DNA of 64,000 nucleotides from Brucella rhizosphaerae (GTDB lineage Bacteria > Pseudomonadota > Alphaproteobacteria > Rhizobiales > Rhizobiaceae), in assembly GCF_002252475.1 (NCBI RefSeq), contig NZ_NNRK01000020.1, positions 62,001 through 126,000 on the forward strand. Direction: 5' to 3'. This document shows positions 43,558 to 60,682 of the stretch, piece by piece. The notes beneath the pieces were generated by a model. The model made no database searches. It saw only the letters and a list, made by a program, of their open reading frames with translations, and was not told the origin of the DNA. The position numbers were made by a program, and so were the translations under genes. The number at the start of each line of letters is the position of its first letter. Position 1 is the first letter of the stretch.

Positions 43558-44160
43558 TCAAGCTGTCAGTGCCACATCGAGACGTCCACTATAAAGCGGT
43601 GATGCCAGACTGCTCAATTCTGACCCGCAGCGTCTTGCTGCCGCGAGACGAGAGAAGGAAGAACTTGACCGTCGCTGGCCCCGCGGTCTCCTCGGCACCT
43701 GATCACTGAGACAACAACCGCGAAAGATGGTTTTTGTTCCTGCCGTGCTCTGCGCACTCAAAAAACCCTGCAAAAGCGTGGAGCTTTGCACGGGGGACAT
43801 CCGCAACAAACAGCGAATGCGCCTTAATGTCTGAAGCGCTTTTTTTTTGCCTTCAATGCGATATTCAAAACCGTAATCCACGCCAGGACGCAGTCTGCTG
43901 TCGCCAAAGGGCTGGCGCAGAGGACCGGCAAGCACCGATCTGAATGCGCGCACAGCACTTGACGGGCGATACTGAAACAATCGCATGGCAGCGAAAGACA
44001 GAACTGTGACGAGCAGCACTGCGAATGTCCACCACCTTTTATGGAAGAGGAACAGCGGCAGGACAAAAATGCAATGCGCGTCGAGCAGGAAAAACGAGGG
44101 AGTGCGCATGGTTTCCCGCCACATGATGGTCCGGCCGTAAAGATCCTCGTCCCTATTCAT
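43558..44160 (-). CDS. IcmT/TraK-like membrane protein with suspect C-terminus
   Basis: The first ~95 residues match the IcmT/TraK family of type IVB secretion and IncI-type conjugation: [20 protein letters not shown], then [21 protein letters not shown] and [13 protein letters not shown]. Family members are about 90 residues. Here the frame runs on to 200 residues through a nine-base A run (43840-43848 on the minus strand) and loses protein-like character. A one-base shift at that run gives an alternative tail ending near 43.7 kb. The ATG overlaps the upstream stop (ATGA). The gene is lone; no other secretion genes were recognised. Confidence 0.6.
43716..43740 (-). promoter_or_regulatory. 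EcfG-type promoter for ligD
   Basis: On the minus strand GGAAC (43740-43736), sixteen bases, then GGTT. It lies about 170 bases upstream of ligD in the same orientation, inside the doubtful 3' part of the IcmT-like frame. Confidence 0.6.
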
Positions 44161-44396
44161 GGCATTGCTTCGTTCCGTGATGCTAGGCCAGACGAGGGTT
44201 GCAGCACGCTCTCAAGAAACAACACGCCGATCAGACTTCCGGCTTCCAGTTTGACAAGGGGACCCTTGGGCACAACCCCTTCGATATCCTGCGCCATGCG
44301 TTGACCGGCCTTGCCCGCCATCTGAAAATAGCAAACACCGGAACTGGCGCCATTGGTGCCAATCAACGTCGTCTCGACCGGCCGATCAAGGGGCAC
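44157..44396 (-). CDS. small protein coupled to the IcmT-like gene
   Basis: A 79-residue frame overlapping the IcmT-like start by four bases. It has VCYFQMAGKAGQRMAQDIEG and a hydrophobic patch (LVKLEAGSLIGVLFLESVL). No family recognised. Coupling suggests that it belongs to the same, possibly decayed, transfer-related unit. Confidence 0.4.
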   Translation of the reverse strand: MPLDRPVETTLIGTNGASSGVCYFQMAGKAGQRMAQDIEGVVPKGPLVKLEAGSLIGVLFLESVLQPSSGLASRNEAMP

Positions 44397-44751
44397 GGAG
44401 ATTGATGTAATTATGACTTTTCCAGCTAATTAAATGGAAGAAAGCACTTCTTAATCCATCTCCAGAGTAGAAACATAGTGGGAGTGACCAGAAACATCCC
44501 CAATCTAAGCCAGATTGTTTTCCCGGTTTCATCCAACAGGATTTTTAAAGGACCTAAGCCACATGAAACTCCAGCCATGCAGACCTGGCGTGAAATAGCA
44601 TGCTTGAAATCCGCATGATATCAGTATCATAGATACAGCTGTGTTCGCGCATAGGTTAAAGTTACACTGCCCCCGTCACGATGTCGTTTCCATCCATCGC
44701 ACCATTGTTGCTATAAGCAACTGATTGCAAAATAACGCATCCGGATTTCAG
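44397..44751. other. intergenic region, no supported gene
   Basis: About 355 AT-rich bases between divergent units. No stress-type promoter, terminator or gene could be supported. Confidence 0.4.
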
Positions 44752-45174
44752 ATGGTTCCTCGCTTCTTCAGACGCTACTTTGCCAGTTTCGCCGCTTGTC
44801 TATGCGGTTTGCTGCTGTTGCCGTAGATTCTGGGCGTACCGGGCAATCCAACGCTTGGGCAGGATTTTGCATGGACCTCGGGTCTTCTGGCAATGGTTGC
44901 TTATCTGGTGATGTTTCAATGTGTTAAAATGATCCAGAGCCGAGACAGATTTGGCAAGCCAAAGCTTTCCACGCGGCTTGATAGCGGCCTTCATGCAGCT
45001 TCCATAGTGCTGTCTGCAGTGCTCGGGGTCGCAGTCATCCTTCTCGTTTGGTTAAATGTTGAGGTGAGCGGAGGAAGGCAAAGCGAAAAACATCATGAGG
45101 CTCTGTTCTCTGCCAATGATTTTTTTGTCGCAACCATTGTCCGCAGAAGGCTTCAACCCACGCGTTGTCGATAA
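44752..45174 (+). pseudogene. membrane protein gene with an in-frame amber codon
   Basis: From the ATG at 44752 the frame codes a membrane segment (FASFAACLCGLLLLP), then TAG at codon 25 (44824-44826), and continues in frame with SGLLAMVAYLVMFQCVKM and AASIVLSAVLGVAVILLVWL, two further segments. The last ~20 residues lose protein character, so a frameshift near the end is also possible. A 93-residue product could start from the ATG at 44893. No family recognised. Confidence 0.5.
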
Positions 45175-45248
45175 GGAGAACGATCAATCCATCGACGCTG
45201 GAGGTCTTGGGCTATACCCAAAATGATTATCGTTGCCAGAAGCGGCGC

Positions 45249-45273
45249 GGAACATTCTAACCGCTGGGATGTT
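45249..45273 (+). promoter_or_regulatory. EcfG-type promoter for the 45.3 kb gene
   Basis: GGAAC, sixteen bases, then TGTT, ending 49 bases before the ATG at 45323, same strand. Confidence 0.65.
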
Positions 45274-45322
45274 AGATGGGGAGCAAGCGCAGTCAAGGCT
45301 AGCCCAGCCTAAGGAGTGAACC

Positions 45323-45622
45323 ATGAAACCTGCCACCATTGCTGCGGTCCTCTTCACCATGGCACTGTGTCATCTGCCGAGTGCCGTATCGGCTGAAGAA
45401 TCCGGCCTTCCCAATCAATCAAGTGGACAAGAACCCGAGGTCCCTGGCAACAATTCCACTACGGGCGCTAAACCTGTTCCACCCAACAGCAAATCGGCGC
45501 CGAAATCTCCGCAGGAGCAGCAGGAAGATGCGCAACGCAAGGCAGAAAAGCTAAGGAAATGCGCGCCGGGACAGGATGCCAAAGCATGTCGTGAATATAA
45601 TGTGAAACACAGCAAGAAATGA
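45323..45622 (+). CDS. small secreted stress protein, unknown function
   Basis: A 99-residue protein with a clear signal peptide (TIAAVLFTMALCHLPSAVSA) and ribosome site AAGGAGTG. The mature part is polar and Pro/Ser/Gln-rich, with a charged helix (QEQQEDAQRKAEKLRKC) and two Cys near the C-terminus (KCAPGQDAKACREY). A periplasmic location is likely. It is preceded by a stress promoter. No family recognised. Confidence 0.65.
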   Translation: MKPATIAAVLFTMALCHLPSAVSAEESGLPNQSSGQEPEVPGNNSTTGAKPVPPNSKSAPKSPQEQQEDAQRKAEKLRKCAPGQDAKACREYNVKHSKK

Positions 45623-45817
45623 ACCCGCTTTACAGCAGGACATAGATTAGCATTTCGATAAATCACACGCCATGCGTCCTACAACGAAAGGCGGGCGACG
45701 GCCTATGGCAATTTAAGCGTGGCGAACTTCAACGAATGCGTAGGAGCGCGAACCACACTGATCGATAATTGATCCCTAGGCCATAATTTGAACTGGATGC
45801 CTTCAGACTGTTCCCGA

Positions 45818-46009
45818 TCAGGATTGCTTTTTCTTATGCGAAGGCTTGCCCTTGTGTTTGGTTGAAGCGAGTTCCTCGAGCTCTTTTTTACTCATCGTGT
45901 TTTCCATTTGTTTCGAGGCTCCCCGAAGCTCTGCTTTGGGTTTGTCTCCGCGTTTTGCGGCAAGGTCCGCACCCGCTGCTTGTTGTTGCGCAGGCTTGTT
46001 GGACGCGAT
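45818..46009 (-). CDS. DUF3008-like small protein lacking a normal start codon
   Basis: The minus strand codes AGADLAAKRGDKPKAELRGA, then MSKKELEELASTKHKGKPSHKK, matching the DUF3008 family of ~60-residue stress-associated proteins. The family's initial Met aligns with an ATC (Ile) codon at 46009. Between this point and the stop of the upstream DUF892 gene there is no ATG, GTG or TTG in frame. The frame is continuous with the DUF892 stop (TGA at 46054-46052) fourteen codons upstream. It may use a rare AUC start, arise by read-through, or be start-defective. Confidence 0.6.
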   Translation of the reverse strand: MASNKPAQQQAAGADLAAKRGDKPKAELRGASKQMENTMSKKELEELASTKHKGKPSHKKKQS

Positions 46010-46051
46010 GCGGTTGCACGACCTGCAACCGCACTTTCGCAGAGCCAGGGG

Positions 46052-46561
46052 TCATCGCTTTTCGGAAACGCCTTCGTGTAGGCTGCGGTTGAGGAACATC
46101 TGCGTCGTCTCATCGAGATGATCTTCAAGCCATTTCGCCATTTGCTGTTCTTCTCGAAGGCTTTCCTCACAAAGCCGCGCGATGTCGGATTCACCGAGAA
46201 AGGTGGCTGCCGAAATCAGAATACGGTAGGAGGCGATCTCCATGTTCTCGAACGAATAGCTGGCAAGAGAACCTTTCAATATTTCGTCGCCTGCAAATAC
46301 CCCGCTCAGCGATTGTGCCATCGCCATCATCTTACCACCCGCATCCTTAAGCGCCGAGGAATCCTCGCCGAGAATCTTAAGGCATTGATCAAGACGCGAA
46401 GCTTGTCTTTTGGTCTCCTCGACATGCTGTTGAATGCGTTCGGCCAGCACCGGATAGTTCTCAATCCGGGACAAGAGGCCATTCATCATTGTCTCCGCCT
46501 GTTCCTCCATGGCATGGGCGTCACGCAGCCACTGCACGAGCCATTCTTTTGCTTCTGTCAT
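46052..46561 (-). CDS. DUF892 ferritin-like protein (YciE/YciF type)
   Basis: A 169-residue all-helical protein from the ATG at 46561, which has GAGGAG eight bases upstream. EWLVQWLRDAHAMEEQAETM, then ERIQQHVEETKRQASRLDQC, YSFENMEIASYRILI and LREEQQMAKWLEDHL carry the Glu/His ligands of a ferritin-like di-iron bundle. YciE/YciF-type proteins are stress-induced. A stress promoter lies at 46593-46617. The DUF3008-like frame follows directly. Confidence 0.88.
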   Translation of the reverse strand: MTEAKEWLVQWLRDAHAMEEQAETMMNGLLSRIENYPVLAERIQQHVEETKRQASRLDQCLKILGEDSSALKDAGGKMMAMAQSLSGVFAGDEILKGSLASYSFENMEIASYRILISAATFLGESDIARLCEESLREEQQMAKWLEDHLDETTQMFLNRSLHEGVSEKR

Positions 46562-46592
46562 GTCTAAATCTCCTCTTGTGGAACATGCCCCC

Positions 46593-46617
46593 AACCACTG
46601 TGAAACAGCTTTGTTCC
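46593..46617 (-). promoter_or_regulatory. EcfG-type promoter for the DUF892 gene
   Basis: On the minus strand GGAAC, sixteen bases, then GGTT, ending 31 bases before the ATG at 46561. Confidence 0.7.
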
Positions 46618-46917
46618 CCGACATGAACCCGCGATGCGCATGACATCGGCAATGAGCGACCTTGGTCGCGTGGCTTACGATCTGGATCGTGCGCGGGCTG
46701 CGGAAGCGCGAAGATAAACCCTTGGCTTTTGGGAGAGTTTTCATTGCGCATATTCACAATTGCCGCGCTTCCGCTTTGGCGTTCAAAAACTTTCCTGCAG
46801 CGAATTGGCGCGCAAGCCCGTTTGACTACCGCTCCAATTGACAGGCAAATTTCTCGACCGATGAGAAAATGTGCGCCATTGCGGTTCGGCAGAGGGGGCG
46901 ATAGGGTCAGCAGCCAG

Positions 46918-46942
46918 GGAACAAGGAAGCGTCGGAACAGTT
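46918..46942 (+). promoter_or_regulatory. EcfG-type promoter for the 3-methyladenine glycosylase gene
   Basis: GGAAC, sixteen bases, then AGTT, about 78 bases before the start at 47021. Confidence 0.6.
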
Positions 46943-47020
46943 GATGTTTTGCCGGGAACGTGCAATCCCGTCGCGCCAACTTAAGACGGAACGCCGCCGG
47001 CTTTAGGGAGATGTTCCCAA

Positions 47021-47590
47021 TTGAAAAATAATGATCTTCAATCTTTCTTTGCCCGCGATGCGAGTGTAGTGGCACCGCAGCTCATCGGCTGGGGGCTAAC
47101 GCTTGAGGGAGTTGGGGGCATGATTGTGGAGACCGAAGCCTATAACCGGATGGATCCCGCCTCCCACAGCTTCAAAGGCCCGTCCCGAAGAAATCGTTCG
47201 ATGTTCGGACCTCCTGGCCATGCTTATGTCTACCGAATATACGGTCTGCATTGGTGTTTGAACTTTGTCTGCCTGGATGGTTCTGCTGTCTTGTTGCGAG
47301 CGCTAGCACCCGCCAAGGGTCTTGCTTTCATGCAACAAAGAAGAGGGACCAGCAATGAGTTGGCTTTGGGCTCAGGACCTGCGAAACTTGCCCAGGCGAT
47401 GGGGGTTACCGCTGAGCTTGACGGCGCGCCACTTTTTGATCAGCCGTTCGAACTGATCGCTTCACAGGCGGATCCACGCATTGAAACAGGCCCTCGCATC
47501 GGGATCAGCCGCGCGCAGGACGTTGCCTGGCGGTTTTGGCTTTCAGGAAGTCCTTATGTCAGCCGCCCGCCTGCCCGCAGACTGACGTGA
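47021..47590 (+). CDS. DNA-3-methyladenine glycosylase (AAG/MPG type)
   Basis: A 189-residue base-excision repair enzyme that removes alkylated purines. Family motifs: IVETEAYNRMDPASHSFKGP with the catalytic Glu, RNRSMFGPPGHAYVYRIYG, and LGSGPAKLAQAMGV, ending with RIGISRAQD. It starts at a TTG with GGGAG upstream. The stress promoter upstream would link alkylation repair to the general stress response. Confidence 0.93.
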   Translation: MKNNDLQSFFARDASVVAPQLIGWGLTLEGVGGMIVETEAYNRMDPASHSFKGPSRRNRSMFGPPGHAYVYRIYGLHWCLNFVCLDGSAVLLRALAPAKGLAFMQQRRGTSNELALGSGPAKLAQAMGVTAELDGAPLFDQPFELIASQADPRIETGPRIGISRAQDVAWRFWLSGSPYVSRPPARRLT

Positions 47591-47655
47591 TGGTTACGGC
47601 CATCCCAACATCGCGTTCCGGCTAAGAAAGCGGCTATCGGAGTTTCGCCCCTGTA

Positions 47656-48282
47656 TCACGTGAAGCCCGGGTAGGGCTCGTCTCGCAAACATGCAGCCAG
47701 GTGAACACAATTGGCTGCCAGCAGCCTAGTGGCGGTCACAACGGCTTCGGGGATCTCGTCGAGATCGATAAAGTTGGTGGACTGCATGGCCTCGCCCACC
47801 CAGTAGGTGACGGCGTTGGCAGGCAATGTGAAGCCAACATCATTGAGCGCCTGAAAAAGCTCGGCCGAAACATGATGCGCTCCGTCCTCGTTTCCTACCA
47901 CAACGACAGCCGCGACGCGTCCGTAGGAGGGCATGCGGTTTCTGTCATCGGCTTCCGATAAAAACGCGTCCATACGTTCCAAAGCGCGTTTGCAGACGCT
48001 GGATGGTTGGCCGAGCCAGATCGGCGTGCCGATCAGAATAATATCGGCTTCGACGATTTTCTGTCGCAGCTCGGGCCATTGATCATCCCCACCTTCATCC
48101 GAGCTGACGCCAGACGCAATGGTAAAATCTGTCAGAAGCACATGCTCGGTTTCCACACCAAACGGATGAAGCTCAGTTTCGACATAGGATAACAGCTTTT
48201 TTGTCGAGGACTGCTTGTCAGACGTTTTCAATGTCGCGTTGAGAGCGAGAGCTTTCAACGGCTTCTGTGATCGGCTGCTCAT
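47656..48282 (-). CDS. NAD(P)H-dependent FMN reductase / flavodoxin-like protein
   Basis: A 208-residue flavodoxin-fold protein from the ATG at 48282 with AAGGAA upstream. LKALALNATLKTSDKQSSTK is the FMN phosphate-binding region, ADIILIGTPIWLGQPSSVCK and VVVVGNEDGAHHVSAELFQA are further flavin-fold strands. Such proteins reduce FMN or quinones. It converges with the glycosylase gene. No stress-type promoter was seen. Confidence 0.85.
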   Translation of the reverse strand: MSSRSQKPLKALALNATLKTSDKQSSTKKLLSYVETELHPFGVETEHVLLTDFTIASGVSSDEGGDDQWPELRQKIVEADIILIGTPIWLGQPSSVCKRALERMDAFLSEADDRNRMPSYGRVAAVVVVGNEDGAHHVSAELFQALNDVGFTLPANAVTYWVGEAMQSTNFIDLDEIPEAVVTATRLLAANCVHLAACLRDEPYPGFT

Positions 48283-48528
48283 TATTATTCCTTTATTGTC
48301 TACACCAGCACCGGGCGCACCGGACTGTTTCTTGGTGTCGGGGGGCGGCCATACCCCAGCTATTGACCGGTTATGGATCGGCATTGTCGCGGTTGACCTA
48401 ACCACAGCAACTGCAAAATGTTTCGCGCTCCCTCCACTGCATTGGTCGCAATTTGGGATGAGATGTCCGCTGAACCTCCTGGCTCGGTAGGATATGACAA
48501 CGAAAAGCAGCTTTGGCTTGAAGGTTAG

Positions 48529-48553
48529 GGAACCTTGAACCAATCGGCGGGTT
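48529..48553 (+). promoter_or_regulatory. EcfG-type promoter for katE
   Basis: GGAAC, sixteen bases, then GGTT, ending 30 bases before the katE ATG. Confidence 0.7.
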
Positions 48554-48583
48554 AGGAGCGCAGTTCTTGAAGGGAGAAAGCGA

Positions 48584-50689
48584 ATGCCAGCCAGGAAAAG
48601 CCAGCCAGCAACCGCCACGATTCACGACCAGAAGCTTGAAAGAGGGGCGGGAGGAGAGCTTCATCAGACTGTCGAGGAGGGCAAGACGCGGCTGACCACC
48701 GCCCAGGGCGTACCGATAGCCGACGATCAGAACAGTCTCAAGATCGGGTCGCGCGGCCCGGCTCTCATGGAGGATTTTCATTTTCGGGAGAAAATTTTTC
48801 ATTTCGATCATGAGCGCATTCCCGAACGCGTGGTTCATGCACGTGGATATGGCGCGCATGGCTATTTCGAGAATTATGCGTCGCTGGCCGCCTATACACG
48901 GGCAGATCTTTTTCAGCGTGCTGGCGAGAAAACGCCGGTTTTTGTCCGCTTTTCCACGGTGGCGGGCTCAAAAGGATCGTTTGATCTGGCGCGGGACGTG
49001 CGCGGTTTCGCCGTCAAATTCTACACCCAGGAAGGAAACTGGGATCTTGTCGGCAACAATATACCGGTCTTCTTCATTCAGGACGCGATAAAATTCCCGG
49101 ACATCATTCACGCGGTGAAGCCGGAGCCGGATCGCGGTTTCCCGCAAGCGCAATCCGCGCATGACAATTTTTGGGATTTCATCAGCCTCACGCCGGAATC
49201 CATGCATATGATCATGTGGGTGATGTCTGACCGCGCCTTACCGCGCTCTTTCCGGTTCATGGAAGGATTTGGGGTCCACACGTTCCGTCTGGTCAATGCC
49301 AGTGGCGAACCCACATTCGTGAAATTCATCTGGAAGCCAATGCTCGGATTGCAATCGGTGCTGTGGAACGAGGCCGTCAAGATCAATGGGGCGGATCCGG
49401 ACTTTCATCGCCGCGATCTGTGGAACGCCATTCAAGCCGGAGATTTCCCGGAATGGGAACTCAATCTGCAGGTCTTCGACCAGGAATTTGCCGACAGTTT
49501 TGATTTTGATGTGCTGGATCCCACCAAGATTATTCCTGAAGAGGTTCTCGCCCCGATACCGGTCGGCCGATTGGTTCTGGATCGCATGCCGGATAACTTC
49601 TTTGCCGAGACGGAACAGGTTGCCTTCATGACGCAAAACGTGCCCCCGGGTATCGATTTTTCAGACGATCCCCTGCTTCAGGGGCGCAATTTCTCCTATC
49701 TCGACACGCAACTTAAACGACTTGGCAGCACCAATTTCACACATCTGCCGATCAACGCTCCCAAATGTCCGTTTCATCATTTTCAGCAGGATGGGCACAT
49801 GGCGATGCGAAATCCCGTGGGACGGGTGAATTATCAGCCCAATTCATGGCAGGAGGAGCCGCGAGAAGATCCTCAAGCAGGTTTCACGACCTATCCGACC
49901 GAGGAACGGGGTGAAAAGCTCCGGCTCCGCCCCGAAAGCTTCGCGGATCACTACAGTCAGGCACGACAGTTTTTTATCAGTCAGACAGAAGTGGAACAGC
50001 ATCATATCGCCGCCGCGCTGACGTTTGAATTAAGTCGATGCGAGAACGTGAAGATCCGGGAGAGAATGGTTTCACACCTGCTCAACATTGATGAGGGGCT
50101 GGCAACCAACGTCGCTGATAAGCTTGGTATTCAGGCGCTGCCCGCTGCTGCGGACACCGCGCTTATGCCGCGACAGGACCTAGAGCCCTCGCCAGCGCTC
50201 AGTATTATCAAAAACGGCCCCGAGAGCTTCGCGGGACGGAAACTCGGCGTTCTGGTGAGCGCAGGCTTTGATGCCGGAATCTTCAACACGCTTAAAGATC
50301 GGTTTGCAGGTGGCCATGCCATGGTCGAGGTCGTCGCCCCGCAGGTGGGTGGTGTCGAGGCAGAGGATGGCAGCTTGATTGCTGCGGATTATATGGTTGA
50401 TGGCGGTCCATCTGTTTTGTTTGACGCAGTTGCACTCGTGCTTTCGGAACAGGCTGCGGAGCGCTTATGCGGTGAAGCGACAGCGCGGGATTTCGTGTCG
50501 GATGCCTTTGCACATTGCAAATACATCGCTTTCACGCAAGGTGGCCTGCCGCTGCTGCAACGTGCCGGAATTGATCCAGATATGGATGAAGGGCTGATTC
50601 TGCTTGAAGACGAGAAGGCGATCCAGAATTTCTACACGGCCTGCGCAAAATTGCGCGTCTGGGCGCGGGAAACCGCGGTCAAACTGTGA
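48584..50689 (+). CDS. katE: large-subunit catalase (HPII type)
   Basis: A 701-residue clade 2 catalase that splits hydrogen peroxide to water and oxygen. The catalytic His lies in [16 protein letters not shown], the distal Asn in [14 protein letters not shown], and the haem-ligand Tyr in [15 protein letters not shown]. Residues ~550-700 ([20 protein letters not shown], and [18 protein letters not shown]) form the extra flavodoxin/DJ-1-like domain of large catalases. A strong hairpin terminator follows. The stress promoter is at the right distance. Confidence 0.96.
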
Positions 50690-50699
50690 CAAGCAAAGG

Positions 50700-50733
50700 G
50701 CCTCCCGCCCGCGCGTTGACGATGGCGGGAGGC
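50700..50733 (+). terminator. hairpin terminator after katE
   Basis: Arms GCCTCCCGCC and GGCGGGAGGC pair perfectly around a 14-base loop, starting eleven bases after the katE stop. The T run after it is short. Confidence 0.6.
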
Positions 50734-51413: not shown

Positions 51414-51438
51414 AACCCGGCTGGCAAGCACTTGTTCC
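51414..51438 (-). promoter_or_regulatory. EcfG-type promoter, minus strand
   Basis: GGAAC, sixteen bases, then GGTT, ending 36 bases before the ATG at 51377. Confidence 0.65.
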
Positions 51439-51479: not shown

Positions 51480-51504
51480 GGAACAGTTCCCGCGCGGACG
51501 AGTT
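51480..51504 (+). promoter_or_regulatory. EcfG-type promoter for the alcohol dehydrogenase gene
   Basis: GGAAC, sixteen bases, then AGTT, about 106 bases before the ATG at 51611. Confidence 0.6.
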
Positions 51505-52774: not shown

Positions 52775-53064
52775 GGGTTGACGGCGAACAAGGCCCACAA
52801 TGGAGCGGTGATCAGCGCTTTGCATGATGCTTGCGGTGAGCCCACAGCCTTCGGAGACAACGCCAATCGGGGCCAGCGCGATCGGGCCAGCGAATGAGCC
52901 AGAGAGTGGGTTGTGCATCGACTGTTGTTCGCTATCCGCTGTCGCCAGGTAGAAGAGGGCGCCATTTCTGCTTTGCAGAACTTGCCTGCTTGCAAAGTCA
53001 TGACGGACGGCAACGGCGGATATAACTATTGGTTCCCGCCATGCCGTTGACTGGTTGGACATAC

Positions 53065-53093
53065 CGGGAAAAAGGGTGCCGACCGGCACCCTT
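53065..53093 (-). terminator. terminator of the SDR gene
   Basis: Arms AAGGGTGCC and GGCACCCTT with a four-base loop; on the minus strand the hairpin is followed by a five-base T run. It lies 44 bases past the SDR stop. Confidence 0.65.
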
Positions 53094-53136
53094 GTTGTGA
53101 TAGTGGATAGTCATCTGAAAACCCGGGAGGCAGAAT

Positions 53137-54030: not shown

Positions 54031-54085
54031 TTTCTCTTCCTTTGCGAATGAGGAAGAAATGGAAATTCAATTCGTTTCTTCCAAA

Positions 54086-54116
54086 TAGCAAAAAAGCGGG
54101 CTTTCGCCCGCTTTCT
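54086..54116 (-). terminator. terminator after the 54.1 kb stress protein gene
   Basis: AAAGCGGGC, a GAAA loop on the minus strand, and GCCCGCTTT with a six-base T run. It sits between the stop at 54120 and the SDR start at 54030. Confidence 0.75.
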
Positions 54117-54119
54117 CAT

Positions 54120-54698
54120 TTACAGGTAACGACGGCGTTCGCGCTCGACTTCCTCGGGCGTGTAAGGATCAGCATCGGCGTCAAAACGCTGCCAGCCTTC
54201 CTCGGTATAAAGCTTGCGACGCGTCGCGACATCCACTCTGTTGGTCCCGGCCAGGATGGCGTCAGCTTCCGCATAGCGCTCGTCGGCGACACGCGCAGTC
54301 ACAAGCGAGCCACCACGACGCACACTTTCAGCATAAACATGCGCATCCTCTTCCGACACGCCGCTTTCGGTGAGGGCACCAATCAGTCCACCCGCCACAC
54401 CGCCAACCACGGCGCCGCCAACGGCACCGGTCAGGGTAGCTGCGAGCCAACCGGCAGCAACCACGGGCCCGACGCCAGGAATAGCCATGATGCCTAAGCC
54501 AGCGAGAAGCCCGCCCGCACCGCCCACAGCGGCACCGATGCCAGCACCCACACCCGCTCCGGAGCCGGCATTGCTTTCTCTGTCATCGTGGTGGGAGACA
54601 ATCGAGATATCGTCTGAAGGGAAGCCCGCGCTTTCCAGGCGTGCAACCGCGTCCTGAGCTGCGGAATAGCTATCAAAAAGTCCAGTAACAGTTCGCAT
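54120..54698 (-). CDS. general-stress-protein-17M-like (YflT-type) protein
   Basis: A 192-residue protein. The N-terminal domain VTGLFDSYSAAQDAVARLES with FPSDDISIVS matches the YflT/GSP17M fold. It is followed by a long Gly/Ala-rich hydrophobic region (GAGIGAAVGGAGGLLAGLG, and LTGAVGGAVVGGVAGGLIGA), likely membrane-inserting, and a charged tail ending in EEVERERRRYL. Function unknown; linked to stress by family. GGGAG precedes the ATG. Confidence 0.8.
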   Translation of the reverse strand: MRTVTGLFDSYSAAQDAVARLESAGFPSDDISIVSHHDDRESNAGSGAGVGAGIGAAVGGAGGLLAGLGIMAIPGVGPVVAAGWLAATLTGAVGGAVVGGVAGGLIGALTESGVSEEDAHVYAESVRRGGSLVTARVADERYAEADAILAGTNRVDVATRRKLYTEEGWQRFDADADPYTPEEVERERRRYL

Positions 54699-54746
54699 AT
54701 TCTTCTCCCTGGTTCATGAAGGTGTTATTACGACGGGGGGTGGGGA

Positions 54747-55067
54747 TTACATCGCCTTCTTGGTGACGTTACCTTGGTAATCAAGCTGCACTTCCATCTT
54801 TTCAGTGCCCTTCATTGCCGAGGCTTCCCAGATACCATCGTCCCGCAGTTTCAAAGCGGTGACATCCTTGTACCCTGCTTCTTCAATGCGGCTCTTGGCC
54901 TGATCTTCGGTGAAGCTATTGGCGCCCTTCACCGGTGCATCTGGATTTTTGCTGTCCGGGGCCGAGACTGCCGGGGTTTCCGGTGAAGTGGCACCACTAT
55001 CCTGTGCAAAGGCAAAAGACGGCGCGACAAGGAACGCGCCAGCAAGCGCTAAAACGCTGATTTTCAT
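54747..55067 (-). CDS. secreted PepSY-like domain protein
   Basis: A 106-residue protein with a standard signal peptide (LALAGAFLVAPSFAFAQ) and a linker rich in Pro/Ser. The C-terminal ~55 residues (FTEDQAKSRIEEAGYKDVTA with IWEASAMKGTEKMEVQLDYQ) look like a PepSY domain, an extracytoplasmic module of regulatory or protease-inhibitor type. GGAG precedes the ATG. A stress promoter lies 36 bases upstream. Confidence 0.8.
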   Translation of the reverse strand: MKISVLALAGAFLVAPSFAFAQDSGATSPETPAVSAPDSKNPDAPVKGANSFTEDQAKSRIEEAGYKDVTALKLRDDGIWEASAMKGTEKMEVQLDYQGNVTKKAM

Positions 55068-55103
55068 GGTTTTTCTCCACTGATGTAATGTCTACACCTA
55101 CCG

Positions 55104-55128
55104 AACTCACGCCCGGAGGTTAAGTTCC
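55104..55128 (-). promoter_or_regulatory. EcfG-type promoter for the PepSY gene
   Basis: On the minus strand GGAAC, sixteen bases, then AGTT, ending 36 bases before the ATG at 55067. Confidence 0.7.
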
Positions 55129-55186
55129 AAAAAACTTCCACAGAGCCCAAGAATTCCTGATGGGCGGCATATGAAGGGAACAACTG

Positions 55187-55211
55187 GGAACATGTTGCAG
55201 GCGTGGAAGTT
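55187..55211 (+). promoter_or_regulatory. EcfG-type promoter for the TIGR02587/TIGR02588 pair
   Basis: GGAAC, sixteen bases, then AGTT, ending 36 bases before the GTG at 55248. This promoter decides the start: an upstream in-frame GTG at 55203 would lie inside it. Confidence 0.65.
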
Positions 55212-55247
55212 TCAGATCTGTCTGGTCGCGATGATGAGGTATTAATT

Positions 55248-56102
55248 GTGCGTTCCACGTCAACCATTCCTTCTGCCAATATCCACCCTGACTTTTTTAC
55301 AGGCATTGCGCGTGGCCTAGGGGGTGCTCTGTTATTTGCGCTGCCGATGCTGATGACGATGGAAATGTGGGAGCTTGGTCTTTACGCCAACCCGATGCGG
55401 TTGCTGCTGCTTTGCCTGTTGAACATTCCGTTGCTGATCGGGCTTGCTTACCGTATCGGGTTTGAGCGCATGTCGACCTGGTCACAAACGCTGCGTGACG
55501 CGGCTATCGCCTTCGCTCTTGGTATTGTGTTGAGCGGAATGATCCTTTGGCTGTTTGGCCTGTTGAGCCGTGAATTGCCGCTGCACCACATGATAGCGAT
55601 GATTGCCCTGCAAGCCGTTCCAGCCAGTATCGGCGCCTTGCTGGGACGCAGCCAACTCGGCATGCGGTCGGAAGAGGATGACGAAGAGGATGGAGAATAT
55701 GATGGAGAGAGCGGCTATTTCAATGAGTTGTTTATGATGATCGTTGGAGCGCTTTTTCTGGGGTTGAATGTGGCCCCCACCGAGGAAATGATCCTGATTG
55801 CCTACAAGATTGTGCCTGGCCAGGCCGTGCTGATCCTGCTTGTGTCGATCATCATCATGCATGGCTTTGTCTATAGCGTTCATTTCAAAGGCGAGCATCG
55901 CGTGCAGGAAGGCGCGCCGTGGTGGAGCTCTTTGGTCCGGTTCACGCTGCCGGGCTATGTGCTGGCATTTGCCACCAGTGCATACACATTATGGACATTT
56001 GAACGGCTGGATGACACCTCATTCGCCCAGATGGTGACAACGATTATTGTGCTGTCGTTTCCCACAGCGATTGGGGCGGCATCCGCCCGCCTGGTTTTGT
56101 GA
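55248..56102 (+). CDS. TIGR02587-family integral membrane protein
   Basis: A 284-residue protein from the GTG at 55248, which has GAGG eight bases upstream. Around seven hydrophobic segments follow (GALLFALPMLMTMEMWELG, LLLLCLLNIPLLIGLAY and so on), with an acidic loop EEDDEEDGEYDGESGYFNE in the middle and APTEEMILIA after it. This matches TIGR02587 (DUF2391), which is paired with a TIGR02588 protein, here the next gene. Role unknown. Confidence 0.85.
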   Translation: MRSTSTIPSANIHPDFFTGIARGLGGALLFALPMLMTMEMWELGLYANPMRLLLLCLLNIPLLIGLAYRIGFERMSTWSQTLRDAAIAFALGIVLSGMILWLFGLLSRELPLHHMIAMIALQAVPASIGALLGRSQLGMRSEEDDEEDGEYDGESGYFNELFMMIVGALFLGLNVAPTEEMILIAYKIVPGQAVLILLVSIIIMHGFVYSVHFKGEHRVQEGAPWWSSLVRFTLPGYVLAFATSAYTLWTFERLDDTSFAQMVTTIIVLSFPTAIGAASARLVL

Positions 56103-56111
56103 GGCAGCGAC

Positions 56112-56528
56112 ATGAACAAGCAAATTAACAGGAAGAACAATGAAGCAGCGACCGTTGAAGTCCATTGGAGCGAGTGGCTCGCGGGTGGCCTATCCGCTTT
56201 GCTTATCGCCTCGCTGCTTTGCTGGTTGGGGTATCATAGTTATCAATATCAGCCAGACAAAGCCGATTTCCGTGTCGAAGTGACCGGCTATACTGCGGTC
56301 GAAAATGGGTATCGGGTCGCTTTTGCAGTTTTCAACTCGTCGCGATCAAGCGCCGCCCAGGTTCGTGTTGTAGGAACCATTGACGAACCGCAAGGGGGCG
56401 CGGAACAGGCGACCGCAATCTTCGATTATGTGGCATCACAAGCTCGGTCCTCGGGCGCACTGTTTTTCTTGAACGATCCGCGCAATCGCGCGCCGAAGCT
56501 GCGCGTGGTAAGCTATATTGAACCTTGA
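56112..56528 (+). CDS. TIGR02588-family membrane-anchored protein
   Basis: A 138-residue protein with a single N-terminal anchor (LAGGLSALLIASLLCWLGYH) and a periplasmic beta domain (DFRVEVTGYTAVENGYRVAF, with APKLRVVSYIEP at the end). It begins nine bases after the TIGR02587 stop. The two families occur as a pair, so they probably form a membrane complex. Function unknown. Confidence 0.85.
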   Translation: MNKQINRKNNEAATVEVHWSEWLAGGLSALLIASLLCWLGYHSYQYQPDKADFRVEVTGYTAVENGYRVAFAVFNSSRSSAAQVRVVGTIDEPQGGAEQATAIFDYVASQARSSGALFFLNDPRNRAPKLRVVSYIEP

Positions 56529-56646
56529 ATTGTTGAGGGTTTCGTCGCAGCGAGGCTTTGCTGAGTGACTGTCCGCTCTCCTCCATGGGGTTGGCGGGTC
56601 GCCATGCAAGAAGGATTCAAAAATTTCGGTGGTTCTCAAAATTGAG

Positions 56647-56671
56647 GGAACAGTGTCTTCGCCTTCTTGTT
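56647..56671 (+). promoter_or_regulatory. EcfG-type promoter for the glutaredoxin-like gene
   Basis: GGAAC, sixteen bases, then TGTT, ending 31 bases before the ATG at 56703. Confidence 0.7.
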
Positions 56672-56702
56672 GGGGTGTTTCCAATGACAGGAGTATGAGA
56701 GG

Positions 56703-57215
56703 ATGAAGAACCCAGCAAGCCAGAATAGTAACAGGACATCCGACAGGGCAGCGACACTGCCTACAGCCGACGAAGAAACCGGCGGTGCCACTGGGGCTTT
56801 GGCAGTGCAACAGCCGCCGCCTTCGCTTCAGGATTCGTCCGGGCAGAGTGATGTTCCGCACCCGGGAACTTGCGGATTCAAGCCGGTCATCTATCTGAAA
56901 GCGGGCTGTCCCTATTGCTTTAAGCTGCGTCTTGCATTGCTCGAAGCCGGGTTGATGGACCGCGTTGCGTTTCAGGAATTCGACGCCGACACGCAGGAAG
57001 AGAGACACATCCGGACAGAACTCTCCCGGCATTTTTTTGCCCTGAGCTTCCCCACTGCAGAAATCGCACCAGGTCGGTTCGAGAAAGGATCAGACGCGCT
57101 CATCCAGCACTTTCTAAGGGATTCAGGCAGATCTGCGAGCCAACTTACAACTTTGCAGGCCTATCTCAAGGGTCCCTTCGTGCAACTCACTGGCCTTTCC
57201 CCCGTCACCCATTAG
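56703..57215 (+). CDS. glutaredoxin-like thioredoxin-fold protein
   Basis: A 170-residue protein. The first ~60 residues are polar and low-complexity. Then VIYLKAGCPYCFKLRLALLE carries the CPYC redox motif, and FALSFPTAEI holds the cis-Pro position. The domain ends near residue 140. It probably reduces disulphides or glutathione adducts under stress. The long N-terminal extension is unusual for a glutaredoxin. Confidence 0.8.
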   Translation: MKNPASQNSNRTSDRAATLPTADEETGGATGALAVQQPPPSLQDSSGQSDVPHPGTCGFKPVIYLKAGCPYCFKLRLALLEAGLMDRVAFQEFDADTQEERHIRTELSRHFFALSFPTAEIAPGRFEKGSDALIQHFLRDSGRSASQLTTLQAYLKGPFVQLTGLSPVTH

Positions 57216-57295
57216 GTCGCTGTTGATGAAGCCACCTCTCGATAGATTGGCCGAGGGGCAAAGAAGGGGAGCGGAAGGCAATCAGCGAAACATCT

Positions 57296-57320
57296 GGAAC
57301 AAGCTTCGACCCGGCGAGTT
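57296..57320 (+). promoter_or_regulatory. EcfG-type promoter for the DUF6766 gene
   Basis: GGAAC, sixteen bases, then AGTT, ending 22 bases before the ATG at 57343. Confidence 0.7.
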
Positions 57321-57342
57321 CGGAATGCGGAGGAAGTGACCG

Positions 57343-58176
57343 ATGATTGCAAAAATGACCAGGAAAACAAGATCGAACTTGCCGTCATCCATTGCTGACG
57401 GTCTCGCTGAGGCGAGGGACCAGATAGAGCCAGGCGCCGTTCGAGCAGATGGCGGAGACCAAATCCCGACAGAAGAAAATCTGGCGCAGGTTCAATGTCT
57501 GAAGAGCCGCAACGACAGTAAGCGGCCGCAGCCGATGCGCCGCTTTCTCAAAGATAATGGGCTAACGATCGCTCTTATCGCGCTGTTTCTTCTGTCGCTG
57601 GTGGGTATGGTTGTTGCGGGACTTTCCCATGTAAACGAAACGCTCATGCGTCATCACCGGGCACCGCTTGGGCTGTTCGAGTACCTTAAGAGCGGGGAAT
57701 TTCTTTCGGCTCTGTTTGAAAACTGGGAGAGTGAATTCCTGCAGATGGGGGTCTATGTCGTCCTGACCGCGATGCTGTTTCAGCGTGGTTCAGCGGAGTC
57801 AAGAGATCCCGATCAGGATCGGGCGCCCTCATCGCAAAGACCATCGCCCGCAGCCAGCCGATTCCACCCTGCTATAGAGTTTCTCTATGCCCATTCGCTG
57901 GGCATTGCTCTCTTTGCATTGTTTGCTAGCAGTTTTGTTTTCCACGTAATAGCCAGTTTTCGCGCAGCGCGTGAAGAAGCGGTACAGCATGGCGCAGCTC
58001 TGGCGGCATTCTGGCCTTACTTGCTGGATTCGGGCCTATGGTTTGAATCTTTCCAAAACTGGCAGTCTGAATTTATGTCGACGGCCGCGCTGGTTCTCTT
58101 ATCGATTTATTTGCGTCAGAAGGGTTCGCCCGAATCCAAGCCAGTGCAGGCCAGCAATCACCAAACCGGTGATTGA
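57343..58176 (+). CDS. DUF6766-family membrane protein
   Basis: A 277-residue protein with GGAGG upstream. After ~65 polar residues come two related halves: MRRFLKDNGLTIALIALFLL with SALFENWESEFLQMGVYVVL and LFQRGSAESRDPD, then FLYAHSLGIALFALFASSFV with FESFQNWQSEFMSTAALVLL and YLRQKGSPES. The (N)WxSEF motif and RGSxES end are typical of DUF6766, and its internal duplication is visible here. Four membrane segments expected. Role unknown. Confidence 0.8.
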   Translation: MIAKMTRKTRSNLPSSIADGLAEARDQIEPGAVRADGGDQIPTEENLAQVQCLKSRNDSKRPQPMRRFLKDNGLTIALIALFLLSLVGMVVAGLSHVNETLMRHHRAPLGLFEYLKSGEFLSALFENWESEFLQMGVYVVLTAMLFQRGSAESRDPDQDRAPSSQRPSPAASRFHPAIEFLYAHSLGIALFALFASSFVFHVIASFRAAREEAVQHGAALAAFWPYLLDSGLWFESFQNWQSEFMSTAALVLLSIYLRQKGSPESKPVQASNHQTGD

Positions 58177-58217
58177 TCGAACCGCCAGAATGGGTGACGC
58201 TGTGGAAATTTCGCTTT

Positions 58218-58242
58218 GGAACAAAGCAACCGGCAAAGGGTT
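58218..58242 (+). promoter_or_regulatory. EcfG-type promoter for the Pro-rich protein gene
   Basis: GGAAC, sixteen bases, then GGTT, ending 29 bases before the ATG at 58272. Confidence 0.7.
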
Positions 58243-58271
58243 GGTGTTTTGAGAGCTTTGAGGAGAAAACC

Positions 58272-58634
58272 ATGACGACACAACCGCTTCCGCAGGACAA
58301 TAGCAATCCGTCCAATTTACCGCAGCCCGGACAGTCGCCAGAAATCCCGGACATTCCTCCGGCTACCGTGCCCGAGCAGCAGCCAGATAGTCTTCCCGAA
58401 CCGCTGGGACCTGACATTCCTGACCGGCCCGAGCCCACGCCTGATGTTCCAGTGCCGGAGCATTCGCCGGAAATCCCGGATATCCCTCCGGCTACCGTGC
58501 CCGAGCAGCAGCCAGACAGTCTACCCGAACCGCTGGGACCTGATATTCCTGATCGTCCCGATCCAGCACCCGAGGTTCCGATGCCAGAGGAGGTACCCCC
58601 GCCCCCTTTCAATCCAGAAAAACTTGCGCTGTAG
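58272..58634 (+). CDS. Pro-rich repeat protein
   Basis: A 120-residue protein from the ATG at 58272, which has GAGGAG upstream; an earlier in-frame ATG at 58173 precedes the promoter. It is almost entirely Pro/Glu/Asp, built of two 43-residue repeats (SPEIPDIPPATVPEQQPDSL, then PEPLGPDIPDRP). No signal peptide and no fold expected. It may be a hydrophilic, disordered protein of the stress-protective kind, which is inference. Confidence 0.7.
   Translation: MTTQPLPQDNSNPSNLPQPGQSPEIPDIPPATVPEQQPDSLPEPLGPDIPDRPEPTPDVPVPEHSPEIPDIPPATVPEQQPDSLPEPLGPDIPDRPDPAPEVPMPEEVPPPPFNPEKLAL
58335..58593 (+). repeat. two tandem copies of a 129-base coding repeat
   Basis: The unit starts TCGCC(A/G)GAAATCCCGGA at 58335 and again at 58464, a period of 129 bases (43 codons). 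The copies differ mainly at silent third positions, which suggests selection on the protein. Confidence 0.8.
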
Positions 58635-58880
58635 TCGCACATGCGAAATCGCTTTTATCGCGGCTCTCGTGAACGTCGCGCTGCGCCCGCTGGAGCCGCG
58701 GTGCCGTTTCATGCATGAGCGGTTACGATAAGCGATAGCCATATCGGGGAAGAGCTTTGACCAACGCGGGCCGGCGCCAGCTCCACTTCTTCACAGGAGG
58801 TGAGCAAAAGCTTGTGGGCGCCCCGGCTGATGACAGACACGGACACCATTGCAGGGGCCGTGATCCTTTTCTTGGGGTTG

Positions 58881-59489
58881 TTACCATGCATCGGCCAGCT
58901 CCTGCGTTGTCGCAAGCTCCAATTGTTCCGCCAGCCTATGATGGCAGAGTGCGAGGATTGCGTCGTGACTTGCATCGGAGCTACTGCAGACCGCATCCGT
59001 CACCAGAATGACGCGATAGCCGCGATCCACGGCTCCAAGAAGGGTCGCAAGTACGCAGAGATCGGTTTCCGCACCACTGACGATCAAGGTGTGGACACGT
59101 TTTTTATAGAGGAATTTCTGGAGCAGACCTTGCGTCCAGGGAGAGTAGACGCCCTTGTCCAGAAGAGTGGCCGGCGGGACAAAGCGTTGTAAGGGATCAA
59201 CAAGATTGAGCAGATCACGGTCCAGAAATTCGAGCGTCACGCTCTGCCATTTGCGGTAATAGCGTTTCCAGGCGCCGACGGCGTCGTCTGGAGAGTGTGG
59301 CGGAATAAAGCGCGTGAAGACGGTCCGCTCGGCGCAGATCCCGCAAAGACTGACAATGTTGGGAAGAACCGCCTCCGCCCAGGGCACATGCCACGGCGCT
59401 CCGGGGCCGAACAATTTTTGCATGTCGACGCAAAGATGCATGCTCCCAGCACGGAGGTTCCCTTTGGTGATCCCGGTTTCAGGCAGCAT
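58881..59489 (-). CDS. isochorismatase-family cysteine hydrolase
   Basis: A 202-residue hydrolase from the ATG at 59489. The catalytic triad is visible: Asp in LCVDMQKLF, Lys in LLDKGVYSPW, and Cys in VSGAETDLCVLAT, with the cis-peptide region preceding the Cys. Members split isochorismate, nicotinamide or N-carbamoyl compounds; the substrate is unknown here. A stress promoter lies about 87 bases upstream. Confidence 0.9.
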   Translation of the reverse strand: MLPETGITKGNLRAGSMHLCVDMQKLFGPGAPWHVPWAEAVLPNIVSLCGICAERTVFTRFIPPHSPDDAVGAWKRYYRKWQSVTLEFLDRDLLNLVDPLQRFVPPATLLDKGVYSPWTQGLLQKFLYKKRVHTLIVSGAETDLCVLATLLGAVDRGYRVILVTDAVCSSSDASHDAILALCHHRLAEQLELATTQELADAW

Positions 59490-59576
59490 TTTGATCTCGC
59501 GCTTTCTTTTCAATTGTGCGGCCGGCTCCAATCATCCGCCATTTTCGCGCGGAGTTGGTTGCCGGTTTACCCACCA

Positions 59577-59601
59577 AACTCCGCCATTCTGTTTTCGTTC
59601 C
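59577..59601 (-). promoter_or_regulatory. EcfG-type promoter for the isochorismatase-family gene
   Basis: On the minus strand GGAAC, sixteen bases, then AGTT, ending 87 bases before the ATG at 59489. Confidence 0.6.
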
Positions 59602-59755
59602 CGCTTTTTACGGCCAGCAGCCGTTCCCGGTCGTGAACCCAACAGCCACAGAGCAACCGCAGCTGAGATCTTCCCTGTACGATATCGTACGGTTGGACCG
59701 TCTCTCGGAACCAAAGCCCCGGTCGGGCCTTAAATCAATGGCGGACAGGAGAGAG

Positions 59756-60241
59756 ATGATGTTATCGCAGCCAAATTTCGAAGATGAGTTGATGCAGCTG
59801 CTACCGGCACTGACGCAGTTCGCGCGGTCCTTATGCCGCCAATCTGCCGATGCAGAAGATCTTGTTCAGGAGACTTTGGTCAAGGCCCTGAAAAACCGGG
59901 AAAAATACCAGCCCTATGGCTCGCTGAAATCCTGGTTGTTCACGATCATGAAAAATAGCTTTTGCAGCCGGTTCAAGCGCGCGCGTCGGGAAACAGCTTT
60001 GGGCGATGAAGGGGGGCCGGTCATCAACGCGCCGCAGGAAATGGCGATTGAACTCCAGGACGTTGGGCGCGCTTACACCAAACTCTCGGAGAGCCACCGC
60101 AACGTCATCGAAATGGTTGTCTTCAATGGTCTGAGCTATCAACATGCCGCCACCCAGAGCGGCTGTACTATTGGCACGATAAAAAGCAGGCTGTGTCGCG
60201 CCCGCATGCAATTGGAGTTGGATCTGAATTCAACGTCGTAA
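59756..60241 (+). CDS. ECF sigma factor, EcfG-like
   Basis: A 161-residue sigma factor with region 2 (LPALTQFARSLCRQSADAED, then LVQETLVKALKNREKY and LKSWLFTIMKNSF) and region 4 (LSESHRNVIEMVVFNGLSYQ, then GCTIGTIKSRLCRARMQLE). The sequence around LVQETLVKA and the absence of C-terminal extensions fit the EcfG group of general stress sigma factors. Starts at 59756 or 59759 follow AGGAG; a farther ATG at 59738 is possible. No anti-sigma gene adjoins it. A poor GGAAC-N16-CCTT lies just upstream. Confidence 0.88.
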   Translation: MMLSQPNFEDELMQLLPALTQFARSLCRQSADAEDLVQETLVKALKNREKYQPYGSLKSWLFTIMKNSFCSRFKRARRETALGDEGGPVINAPQEMAIELQDVGRAYTKLSESHRNVIEMVVFNGLSYQHAATQSGCTIGTIKSRLCRARMQLELDLNSTS

Positions 60242-60248
60242 CGGGTGT

Positions 60249-60590
60249 TTATTCGGGAAGCATGTCTGGTTCCTGCGCAGCATTGCCATTGGCGGCGAAA
60301 ACGTCTTGAGACTGTTGCGCTGGACTGATCAAGCGGATCGCCAGATCGCAGACTACTGATGAATCCCGCAGGCCACTTTCGTAAAGCCGCAACACCTGCT
60401 CGGCCAGAACGGCTTCGTCGAGTTGCGGACCGGATAGTTTGAGGGAAGCAAGTGCAACGCAGTTTCGCATGAAGTCGATTTCATCGGGCGCGTAGATTCT
60501 GCTCGCTTCGTTAAAAAGGGGCACGGCAAATTCCTCGCTGTTATCAGCCACCCGTTGGTGGGCAGAAATCCAGTATAGCGGATAAAGCAC
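60249..60590 (-). CDS. small protein beside the sigma factor, unknown
   Basis: A 113-residue acidic protein converging on the sigma factor gene with a seven-base gap. It starts at a GTG without a strong ribosome site, so the N-terminus is uncertain. Helical segments (EEFAVPLFNEASRIYAPDEI, and LDEAVLAEQVLRLYESGLRD) suggest an all-alpha domain. No family recognised. An anti-sigma role cannot be excluded but is not supported. Confidence 0.45.
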   Translation of the reverse strand: MLYPLYWISAHQRVADNSEEFAVPLFNEASRIYAPDEIDFMRNCVALASLKLSGPQLDEAVLAEQVLRLYESGLRDSSVVCDLAIRLISPAQQSQDVFAANGNAAQEPDMLPE

Positions 60591-60657
60591 CCCGTTTTTT
60601 TTGTCCGATAGCGTACAAAGGCCTTGCTTACCGCTCTAAGCGATGAGGTTGCCAGGC

Positions 60658-60682
60658 GGAACAAAAGCCTGCCTGGCTTGTT
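60658..60682 (+). promoter_or_regulatory. EcfG-type promoter for the first Crp/Fnr gene
   Basis: GGAAC, sixteen bases, then TGTT, ending 34 bases before the ATG at 60717. Confidence 0.7.

Follow-up and report, generated by a model that had tools for sequence, protein, structure and literature searches.

We analysed a window of 64,000 nucleotides of Brucella rhizosphaerae DNA (positions 62001-126000 of contig C11, NZ_NNRK01000020.1, which has 157,221 bases in a genome of 4.9 Mb and 36 contigs), in which promoter-like sites of the form GGAAC-N16-NGTT are clustered around the genes of EcfG-like sigma factors. Computational comparisons made it probable that this is a stress island on a plasmid, controlled by EcfG-like sigmas of its own (termed here ECF1 and ECF2) that are of the same kind as the non-canonical EcfG, or EcfG2, of Rhizobium etli. 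Judging from the evidence below, it is very likely that both the island promoters and their sigma factors are genuine. The island comprises about two dozen stress-protection genes and the two sigma factors that probably turn them on. The canonical EcfG box is GGAAC-N16-CGTT (PMC3892343), whereas the island sites mostly have A, G or T in the first -10 position. The comparison supplies a concrete pattern for non-canonical EcfG, namely D-GTT ([A/G/T]GTT) against CGTT.

In 2013, half of the completed alphaproteobacterial genomes were reported to have additional EcfG genes, a presence that "has not satisfactorily been explained" (PMC3892343), and a 2021 review described the promoter pattern of non-canonical EcfG as "yet to be determined" (PMC8103513). 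We regard the finding as of moderate to high interest because it answers this stated gap. Our literature survey, mostly at title level and with little subscription literature, found neither a promoter motif for plasmid-type non-canonical EcfG nor a plasmid stress island of this kind.

Promoter-like sites and sigma factors of the island

The exact pattern GGAAC-N17-GTT, equal to GGAAC-N16-NGTT, was searched on both strands. The window held 17 matches, compared with 1.67 expected (standard deviation 1.30; maximum 6 over 100 shuffles), and 15 of them fell in the 17 kb from 43.7 to 60.7 kb, where about 0.4 were expected from shuffles. When the gap between GGAAC and GTT was varied from 12 to 21 bases (window 43.5-61 kb), the counts were 1, 0, 1, 0, 2, 15, 1, 0, 3, and 0; hence one spacing alone, 17 bases, was over-represented. 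The whole genome showed no excess (179 matches vs 194 for the reversed pattern), and 24 of the 27 matches on C11 lay inside 105.0-147.5 kb, with three in the other 114.7 kb. The original prediction, made from the letters of the window alone, had described fourteen such sites in a plasmid-borne stress island with two EcfG-like sigma factors, and had set beforehand a similar density elsewhere on the replicon as its refuting test; the density found on C11 supported it. All fourteen sites were recovered at their coordinates and strands, together with a fifteenth, 53012(-), that it did not list. Its 17-kb extent, ending at 60682, was too short: as the distribution on C11 indicates, the cluster continues about 21 kb past the window, and the island reaches about C11:147 kb, about 42 kb in all.

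On the plus strand, sites precede a small gene whose start, read by eye, resembles a signal peptide (45249..45273, TGTT), the gene of AAG, a methylpurine-DNA glycosylase (46918..46942, AGTT), katE (48529..48553, GGTT), a zinc alcohol dehydrogenase (ADH) gene (51480..51504, AGTT), the TIGR02587/TIGR02588 pair (55187..55211, AGTT), a glutaredoxin-like gene (56647..56671, TGTT; a weak assignment at 22.6 bits vs a Pfam cut-off of 22.9), a DUF6766 gene (57296..57320, AGTT), a proline-rich 120-amino-acid gene (58218..58242, GGTT), and a Crp/Fnr regulator gene (60658..60682, TGTT). On the minus strand, they precede ligD (43716..43740, GGTT), a DUF892 gene (46593..46617, GGTT), a gene for a 130-amino-acid protein (51414..51438, GGTT), a PepSY gene followed by a YflT gene (55104..55128, AGTT), and an isochorismatase-type gene (59577..59601, AGTT). 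Ten of the fourteen end 22-49 bases upstream of a start codon, in agreement with the predicted 22-50 bases for most sites. The gaps are longer for AAG (78 bases), ADH (106), and ligD (about 154, a long leader at 43562-43715), and the isochorismatase site lies, by coordinates, 45 bases from a TTG start and 87 from an ATG. The fuller element before island genes reads GGAAC(A)-N16-[A/G/T]GTT-N-G. The fifteenth match (53012..53036, minus strand, CGTT) was rejected as a promoter and is probably due to chance, because no gene follows it and the single aligned ortholog has a gap there. Two further matches, 17537 and 22218, were also rejected, since the density there was that of the background, as the prediction had already supposed for 22218. 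Three divergent site pairs in the window (46593/46918, 51414/51480, and 55104/55187) and two beyond it (C11:137487/137529 and 143331/143398) each place the promoter-like sites of two genes in one intergenic region.

The nearest named island is that of Brucella pseudogrignonensis CCUG 30717, a species formerly placed in Ochrobactrum, with 81-88% DNA identity. Fourteen sites in C11 110-131 kb were compared with this ortholog; nine could be aligned, one fell in a gap, and four were unaligned. Eight of the nine keep all eight core bases (the katE site is identical, and the cores at 51480, 55104, 55187, 59577, and 60658 are complete) and one, at 51414, keeps seven, while 10-17 of the 17 spacer bases are kept. 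Summed over the nine sites, 71 of 72 core bases but 114 of 153 spacer bases are retained; at 60658, two spacer bases are lost and two gained, so that the length is the same. A kept core with a drifting spacer is the pattern expected of promoters. It is therefore hardly credible that the sites, known at the sequence level, are chance matches or a repeat-derived element; the shuffles, the off-spacing counts, the conserved cores, and the recurrence on other plasmids described below all speak against it.

ECF1 (59756..60241, plus strand) starts at 59756 after AGGAGAG, with 59738 also possible, and ECF2 (63217..63735, minus strand) follows the gene of a small stress protein (63793..63978, minus strand; no Pfam match) that is presumably of the KGG-repeat type and opens the ECF2 unit. 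Both sigma factors matched Pfam Sigma70_r2, Sigma70_r4_2, and PhyR_sigma2 over cut-off, and the best solved relative of ECF1 was 5uxx_A (E 2e-29), which we take to be Bartonella EcfG with NepR. They thus have sigma-70 regions 2 and 4 with EcfG as the nearest similarity, as members of ECF15/EcfG do, and the site cluster has the GGAAC -35 box and 16-base spacer of this family at the sequence level. PhyR_sigma2 matched five places in the genome, one being PhyR itself. A canonical locus with PhyR, nepR, and a third EcfG side by side was present on contig C26; the only NepR match in the genome was there, with none on the plasmid contig, and neither PhyR nor NepR was found in the island, so that ECF1 and ECF2 lack the adjacency to nepR and phyR of a canonical EcfG.

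A tree was built from 95 sequences and rooted at the midpoint, with a bootstrap that did not fully settle. In it, 49 rows for which no PhyR neighbour was found stood apart from a 46-row side that included all 31 PhyR-linked rows (split support 85/90). The former side, termed satellite here, held ECF1, ECF2, and 11/11 plasmid copies examined. By this tree, ECF1 and ECF2 are not canonical EcfG but belong to a separate PhyR-less satellite group, and they combine the separate clade, the plasmid location, and the absence of NepR and PhyR described for non-canonical EcfG2. After exclusion of five diverged PhyR-linked rows, ECF1 position 51 was L or I in 49/49 satellites and W in 26/26 canonical rows, and position 62 was N in 23/26 canonical rows and R, S, K, or P in 39/49 satellites. 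Both positions fall in sigma region 2, near what we take to be the -10 specificity loop, and we would guess that they are tied to the choice of the -10 base. Among 35 genomes of the genus, 23 had satellite sigmas (at least 43% identity to ECF1, counted by hand), whereas a full-length canonical-type match (36-38%, by identity alone) occurred in 34, the incomplete genome G009 having a fragment only. This patchy presence fits an accessory island. ECF1-like and ECF2-like genes lay 3-5 kb apart in nine genus genomes including that of the window, with a tenth fragmentary.

It appears very improbable that a different sigma factor reads the island, for example an ECF26-type factor or the ECF encoded on contig C17 (G000:C17:133942-134409(-)), which has a candidate anti-sigma gene beside it by eye. 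The C17 gene does exist, and the motif of Sinorhizobium meliloti RpoE6 resembles the ECF15 motif (PMC6180224), but the C17 gene is not on the contig of the island and has a very long branch in the tree, and many genomes show the motif cluster around their satellite EcfG genes.

The first base of the -10 element

The regions around the best 80 of 575 relatives were sampled and called PhyR-linked when a tblastn match of at least 150 residues was present; the PhyR matches of L073, L127, and L146 were discounted, being 25-29% identical and over the sigma gene itself. At the 30 loci with PhyR nearby, C came first in 96/124 N16 sites (off-spacing control 29/98), compared with 62/235 (control 41/138) at the 50 loci without PhyR. 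The site densities were alike, 2.29 per 10 kb at canonical and 2.49 at satellite loci, which ruled out the idea that canonical loci lack site clusters; density alone thus fails to mark satellites, and it is the -10 base that does so. Among canonical loci, C was found in 38/40 sites of Rhizobiales and 45/56 of Rhodobacterales. Among satellites, the counts were 10/87 in Brucellaceae, 16/83 in Rhizobium group A, 11/35 in Mesorhizobium, 12/72 in Stappia/Sinorhizobium, 8/23 in Rhodobacterales, and 7/21 in others. Brucellaceae, the sole group tested in this way, were below the 28% background (p 2e-4). Satellites overall look unconstrained at this base rather than averse to C. The median C fraction of loci with at least three sites, nine diverged loci excluded, was 0.91 for 25 canonical-side loci (SigU-like loci included) and 0.26 for 42 satellite loci (p 2e-9).

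The difference was also seen within the genus. For hand-picked loci from other genomes, 12 satellite and 7 canonical, taken together with the island and the canonical locus of the same genome, C was first in 9/102 distinct satellite sites and in 14/17 canonical sites; the latter loci were site-poor, with 17 matches at N16 spacing and up to 11 at other spacings. At gene-associated sites, A followed GGAAC (the +6 base) in 49/77 satellite and 0/9 canonical cases, and G stood two bases after GTT in 51/77 and 0/9. The tetramer CGTT was observed 109 times at canonical loci (L113, L118, and L151 excluded) against 5.1 expected. The island departs from the CGTT of canonical EcfG: C was first in 3/24 of its sites, one of them the probable chance match at 53012. 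Among 30 sites on contigs C2-C10 of the same genome, 4/9 CGTT and 1/21 D-GTT sites were intergenic-like, and a start lay downstream at 3/9 and 4/21, respectively. The split between D-GTT and CGTT is strongly supported as a matter of sequence, and a functional code behind it is plausible. The "EcfG-type regulon" of the original prediction therefore stands for the -35 box and the spacing and not for the rest: the canonical locus is on C26, the island sigmas belong to a PhyR-less group, and the label hides the main finding, since the canonical box is CGTT and the island has so few C. Its wording "NGTT" was informative, because canonical loci have mostly CGTT and satellite islands mostly A/G/T-GTT.

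The same data bear on the explanation that the island is part of the host general stress regulon, its promoters being read directly by the chromosomal EcfG with ECF1 and ECF2 as minor amplifiers. The -35 box and spacing are identical, TGTT and GGTT boxes are both read in vitro by either EcfG of Sphingopyxis (PMC7083833), the R. etli sigmas have some common targets (PMC3892343), and AGTT (8 vs 2.9 expected) and TGTT (11 vs 3.7) are mildly enriched at canonical loci, an enrichment that also counts against a strict separation by the first -10 base. We nevertheless consider direct reading unlikely: in Rhizobiales and within the genus, canonical loci show a strong preference for C at the first -10 base that the island lacks, D-GTT matches outside the island are rarely intergenic-like in this genome, and the +6 base and the G after GTT differ as well.

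Promoters of the sigma genes and the proposed cascade

The candidate promoter of ECF1 is GGAAC-N16-CCTT at 59707..59731 on the plus strand. In 12/13 same-genus loci, GGAAC-N16-YCTT lay 6-28 nt upstream of ECF1 (9 CCTT and 3 TCTT; some of the loci are near-copies). A D-GTT site, C11:126040(-), just past the window end, lies 304 nt upstream of ECF2, and a D-GTT site was present upstream of ECF2 in 9/9 loci tested. Among 46 satellite sigma genes, with those of the window, L075 (the B. pseudogrignonensis ortholog), and R. etli set apart, 33 had a C-first box upstream (CATT 17, CGTT 15, CCTT 1); the remainder had D-GTT (6), D-GTT at 339-360 nt in the layout of ECF2 (4), another box (2), or none (1). 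When NGTT sites alone were considered, C was first in 15/24 at satellite sigma genes vs 96/423 at other island sites (p 6e-5, for related loci). CATT was enriched at canonical loci (19 vs 4.7) and at satellite sigma genes (17) and showed no enrichment among other island sites (11 vs 7.5). The position of 33/46 satellite sigma genes behind C-first boxes suggested that the host EcfG switches on the satellite. The RpoE2-dependent promoter of S. meliloti rpoE5, which encodes an ECF15 sigma, likewise reads GGAAC-N16-CATT in the printed sequence (PMC6180224).

From these arrangements we infer a cascade from the host EcfG to the satellite and on to the island. A stress signal would pass from PhyR-NepR-EcfG to ECF1, and from ECF1 to the island and ECF2; ECF1 and ECF2 would transcribe the D-GTT island genes, and transcription of ECF2 from its own D-GTT promoter would provide feedback. 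The canonical EcfG, preferring C at the first -10 position, would make poor use of the island promoters, so that host coupling would run mainly through the C-first box on satellite sigma genes (CGTT or CATT; YCTT before ECF1 in this genus). Tentatively, the model can be extended to the Alphaproteobacteria at large, whose non-canonical EcfG sigmas would be portable stress regulons and would follow a promoter code that is asymmetric. The host would demand C and the satellite would tolerate any base; cargo promoters would have lost C by drift or by selection and thereby be insulated, and the C-first promoter of the sigma gene would plug the island of a new plasmid into any host PhyR-NepR-EcfG switch. 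Its physical logic is that the sigma travels together with its own regulon.

Several observations weigh against an island run by its own sigmas with a distinct -10 base. The island site C11:130406(-) is CGTT, unchanged in the ortholog, and a start codon lies downstream at 17/24 island sites but also at 19/38 off-spacing matches, probably because the latter share true -35 boxes, so that a downstream start fails to separate real sites inside the island. C was first in 11/24 sites of canonical Sphingomonadales and others, and in 16/39 N16 sites of a Neorhizobium satellite subclade that often has N17 spacing; in L190 and L191, of the same genus as the window, the apparent phyR promoter reads AGTT. 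The p-values overstate independence because the loci are related. CCTT, as found before ECF1, showed no clear excess at canonical loci (8 vs 5.4). In most of 10 whole plasmid records, the pattern was hardly or not at all commoner than its reverse, and the record of Rhizobium sp. WSM4643 had hardly any (17 D-GTT vs 14). In R. etli, ecfG2 has no GGAAC box upstream, its expression is EcfG1-dependent in part only, and in E. coli both the phyR promoter and that of ReC64, which has the EcfG1 consensus, respond to EcfG2 (PMC3892343); the overall identity of EcfG2, 43% to ECF1 and 42% to canonical EcfG, is no guide to its group. Overexpression of S. meliloti RpoE5 yielded a single target (PMC6180224).

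Replicon, cargo, and related systems

Two repC genes lie about 6 kb apart in the window (21070-21585 and 27388-27891, both on the minus strand), and contig C11 therefore fits a repABC plasmid, as predicted; we infer a plasmid-type replicon, its identity being deduced as the contig is not closed. The two genes may reflect a fusion of two repABC replicons. An Rfam S-element lies near the second repC (27934-28000, minus strand).

The remaining genes at the end of the window encode a second Crp/Fnr-type regulator (61797..62507, minus strand, by Pfam) and a small protein with a single receiver-like domain, read by eye (62750..63142, minus strand), which had no match in Pfam or NCBIfam and has relatives at 6/35 satellite and 0/30 PhyR-linked loci. 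Beyond it follow the KGG-repeat and ECF2 unit behind its site C11:126040(-), a YflT-like gene without a Pfam match, a DUF892 gene, a PAS-HWE histidine kinase, two Ku genes, topoisomerase IB, and a DUF3175 gene. The cargo thus includes DNA repair (LigD, two Ku, AAG, and topoisomerase IB) besides catalase, DUF892, YflT, and other stress genes; the placement of promoter-like sites before such genes, and their conservation in a relative, bore out the predicted stress-gene island. When 35 satellite loci, the ortholog excluded, were compared with 30 PhyR-linked loci, DUF892 was found at 18 vs 0, Ku at 11 vs 0, topoisomerase IB at 11 vs 0, and LigD at 10 vs 0. The HWE kinase was unspecific (11/35 vs 8/30), and many other cargo genes showed no enrichment at satellite loci in this comparison. 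To the right of the island, at C11:153567-155084, lies an insertion-sequence-like element (by open reading frames, by eye), an 87% relative of a repeat on the plasmid of Rhizobium sp. ACO-34A, where identical direct copies of 1.5 kb (4309-5824 and 37139-38654) flank the stress region. These copies, with their relative on C11, point to possible movement of stress regions as composite transposons.

Eleven plasmid loci around satellite sigmas, hand-picked from 40 of 1272 records, showed the same spacing peak, weakest at L069, L072, and L073. CP061774.1 (Ochrobactrum sp. MT180101) had 19/22 matches within 31.5-71.1 kb of 255 kb, the inside-versus-outside split being counted for this record alone of the 10 whole plasmid records. 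The MT180101 island also has an inverted repeat of 78-82% identity (10989-12624 and 35050-36189), which overlaps annotated Ku genes and motif sites. On NZ_CP023000.1, a Rhizobium megaplasmid, the motif was dense over tens of kb among the matches listed, from about 1.45 Mb across the origin to 70 kb. CP061774.1 and CP021375.1 (ACO-34A) resemble the present island in having a satellite sigma, Ku or LigD, stress genes, and a dense motif, but their gene order differs and ACO-34A mixes 16- and 17-base spacers.

Canonical EcfG/ECF15 factors working with PhyR-NepR (SigT, RpoE2, and R. etli RpoE4) share the GGAAC -35 box, the 16-base spacer, and the stress role with the island, whereas they prefer CGTT, are linked to nepR/phyR, and lie on the opposite side of the tree. 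Caulobacter SigU is also an EcfG paralog, located downstream of the main EcfG (PMC8103513). Unlike satellites, six Caulobacterales loci that we take to be SigU-like keep C in 11/15 N16 sites and fall on the canonical side. S. meliloti RpoE5 is an ECF15 paralog on pSymB that is raised by RpoE2 and has the GGAAC-N16-CATT promoter mentioned above; it differs in the NepR-like open reading frame reported beside it (PMC6180224). The flexible -10 box used by two EcfGs in Sphingopyxis (PMC7083833) is a partial precedent for the base tolerance proposed here.

Among the closest known systems is EcfG2 of R. etli (PF00052, on p42f). In this species, PMC3892343 (Jans et al. 2013) gives GGAAC-N16-CGTT as the EcfG1 motif, found before 1/19 EcfG2-dependent units, and reports no motif for EcfG2. 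EcfG2 was compared by identity and residues, outside the tree: it shares 82% identity with the Rhizobium sp. WSM4643 satellite, a long branch of the satellite group, and has satellite residues at ECF1 positions 38, 51, 62, 65, and 88, with a canonical-type L at 71. It differs from the island in having one sigma rather than a pair and no GGAAC box before its gene. Like the island, it is plasmid-borne, has no NepR or PhyR reported nearby, and lies in a GGAAC-N16-NGTT cluster: the 48 kb around ecfG2 held 14 matches vs 0-3 at other spacings, 12 with A, G, or T first and 2 with C, and the whole p42f record had 28 D-GTT matches vs 13 in the control, 12 of the 28 within 45-75 kb. The pattern offers a possible reason why a search over few genes overlooked it in R. 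etli.

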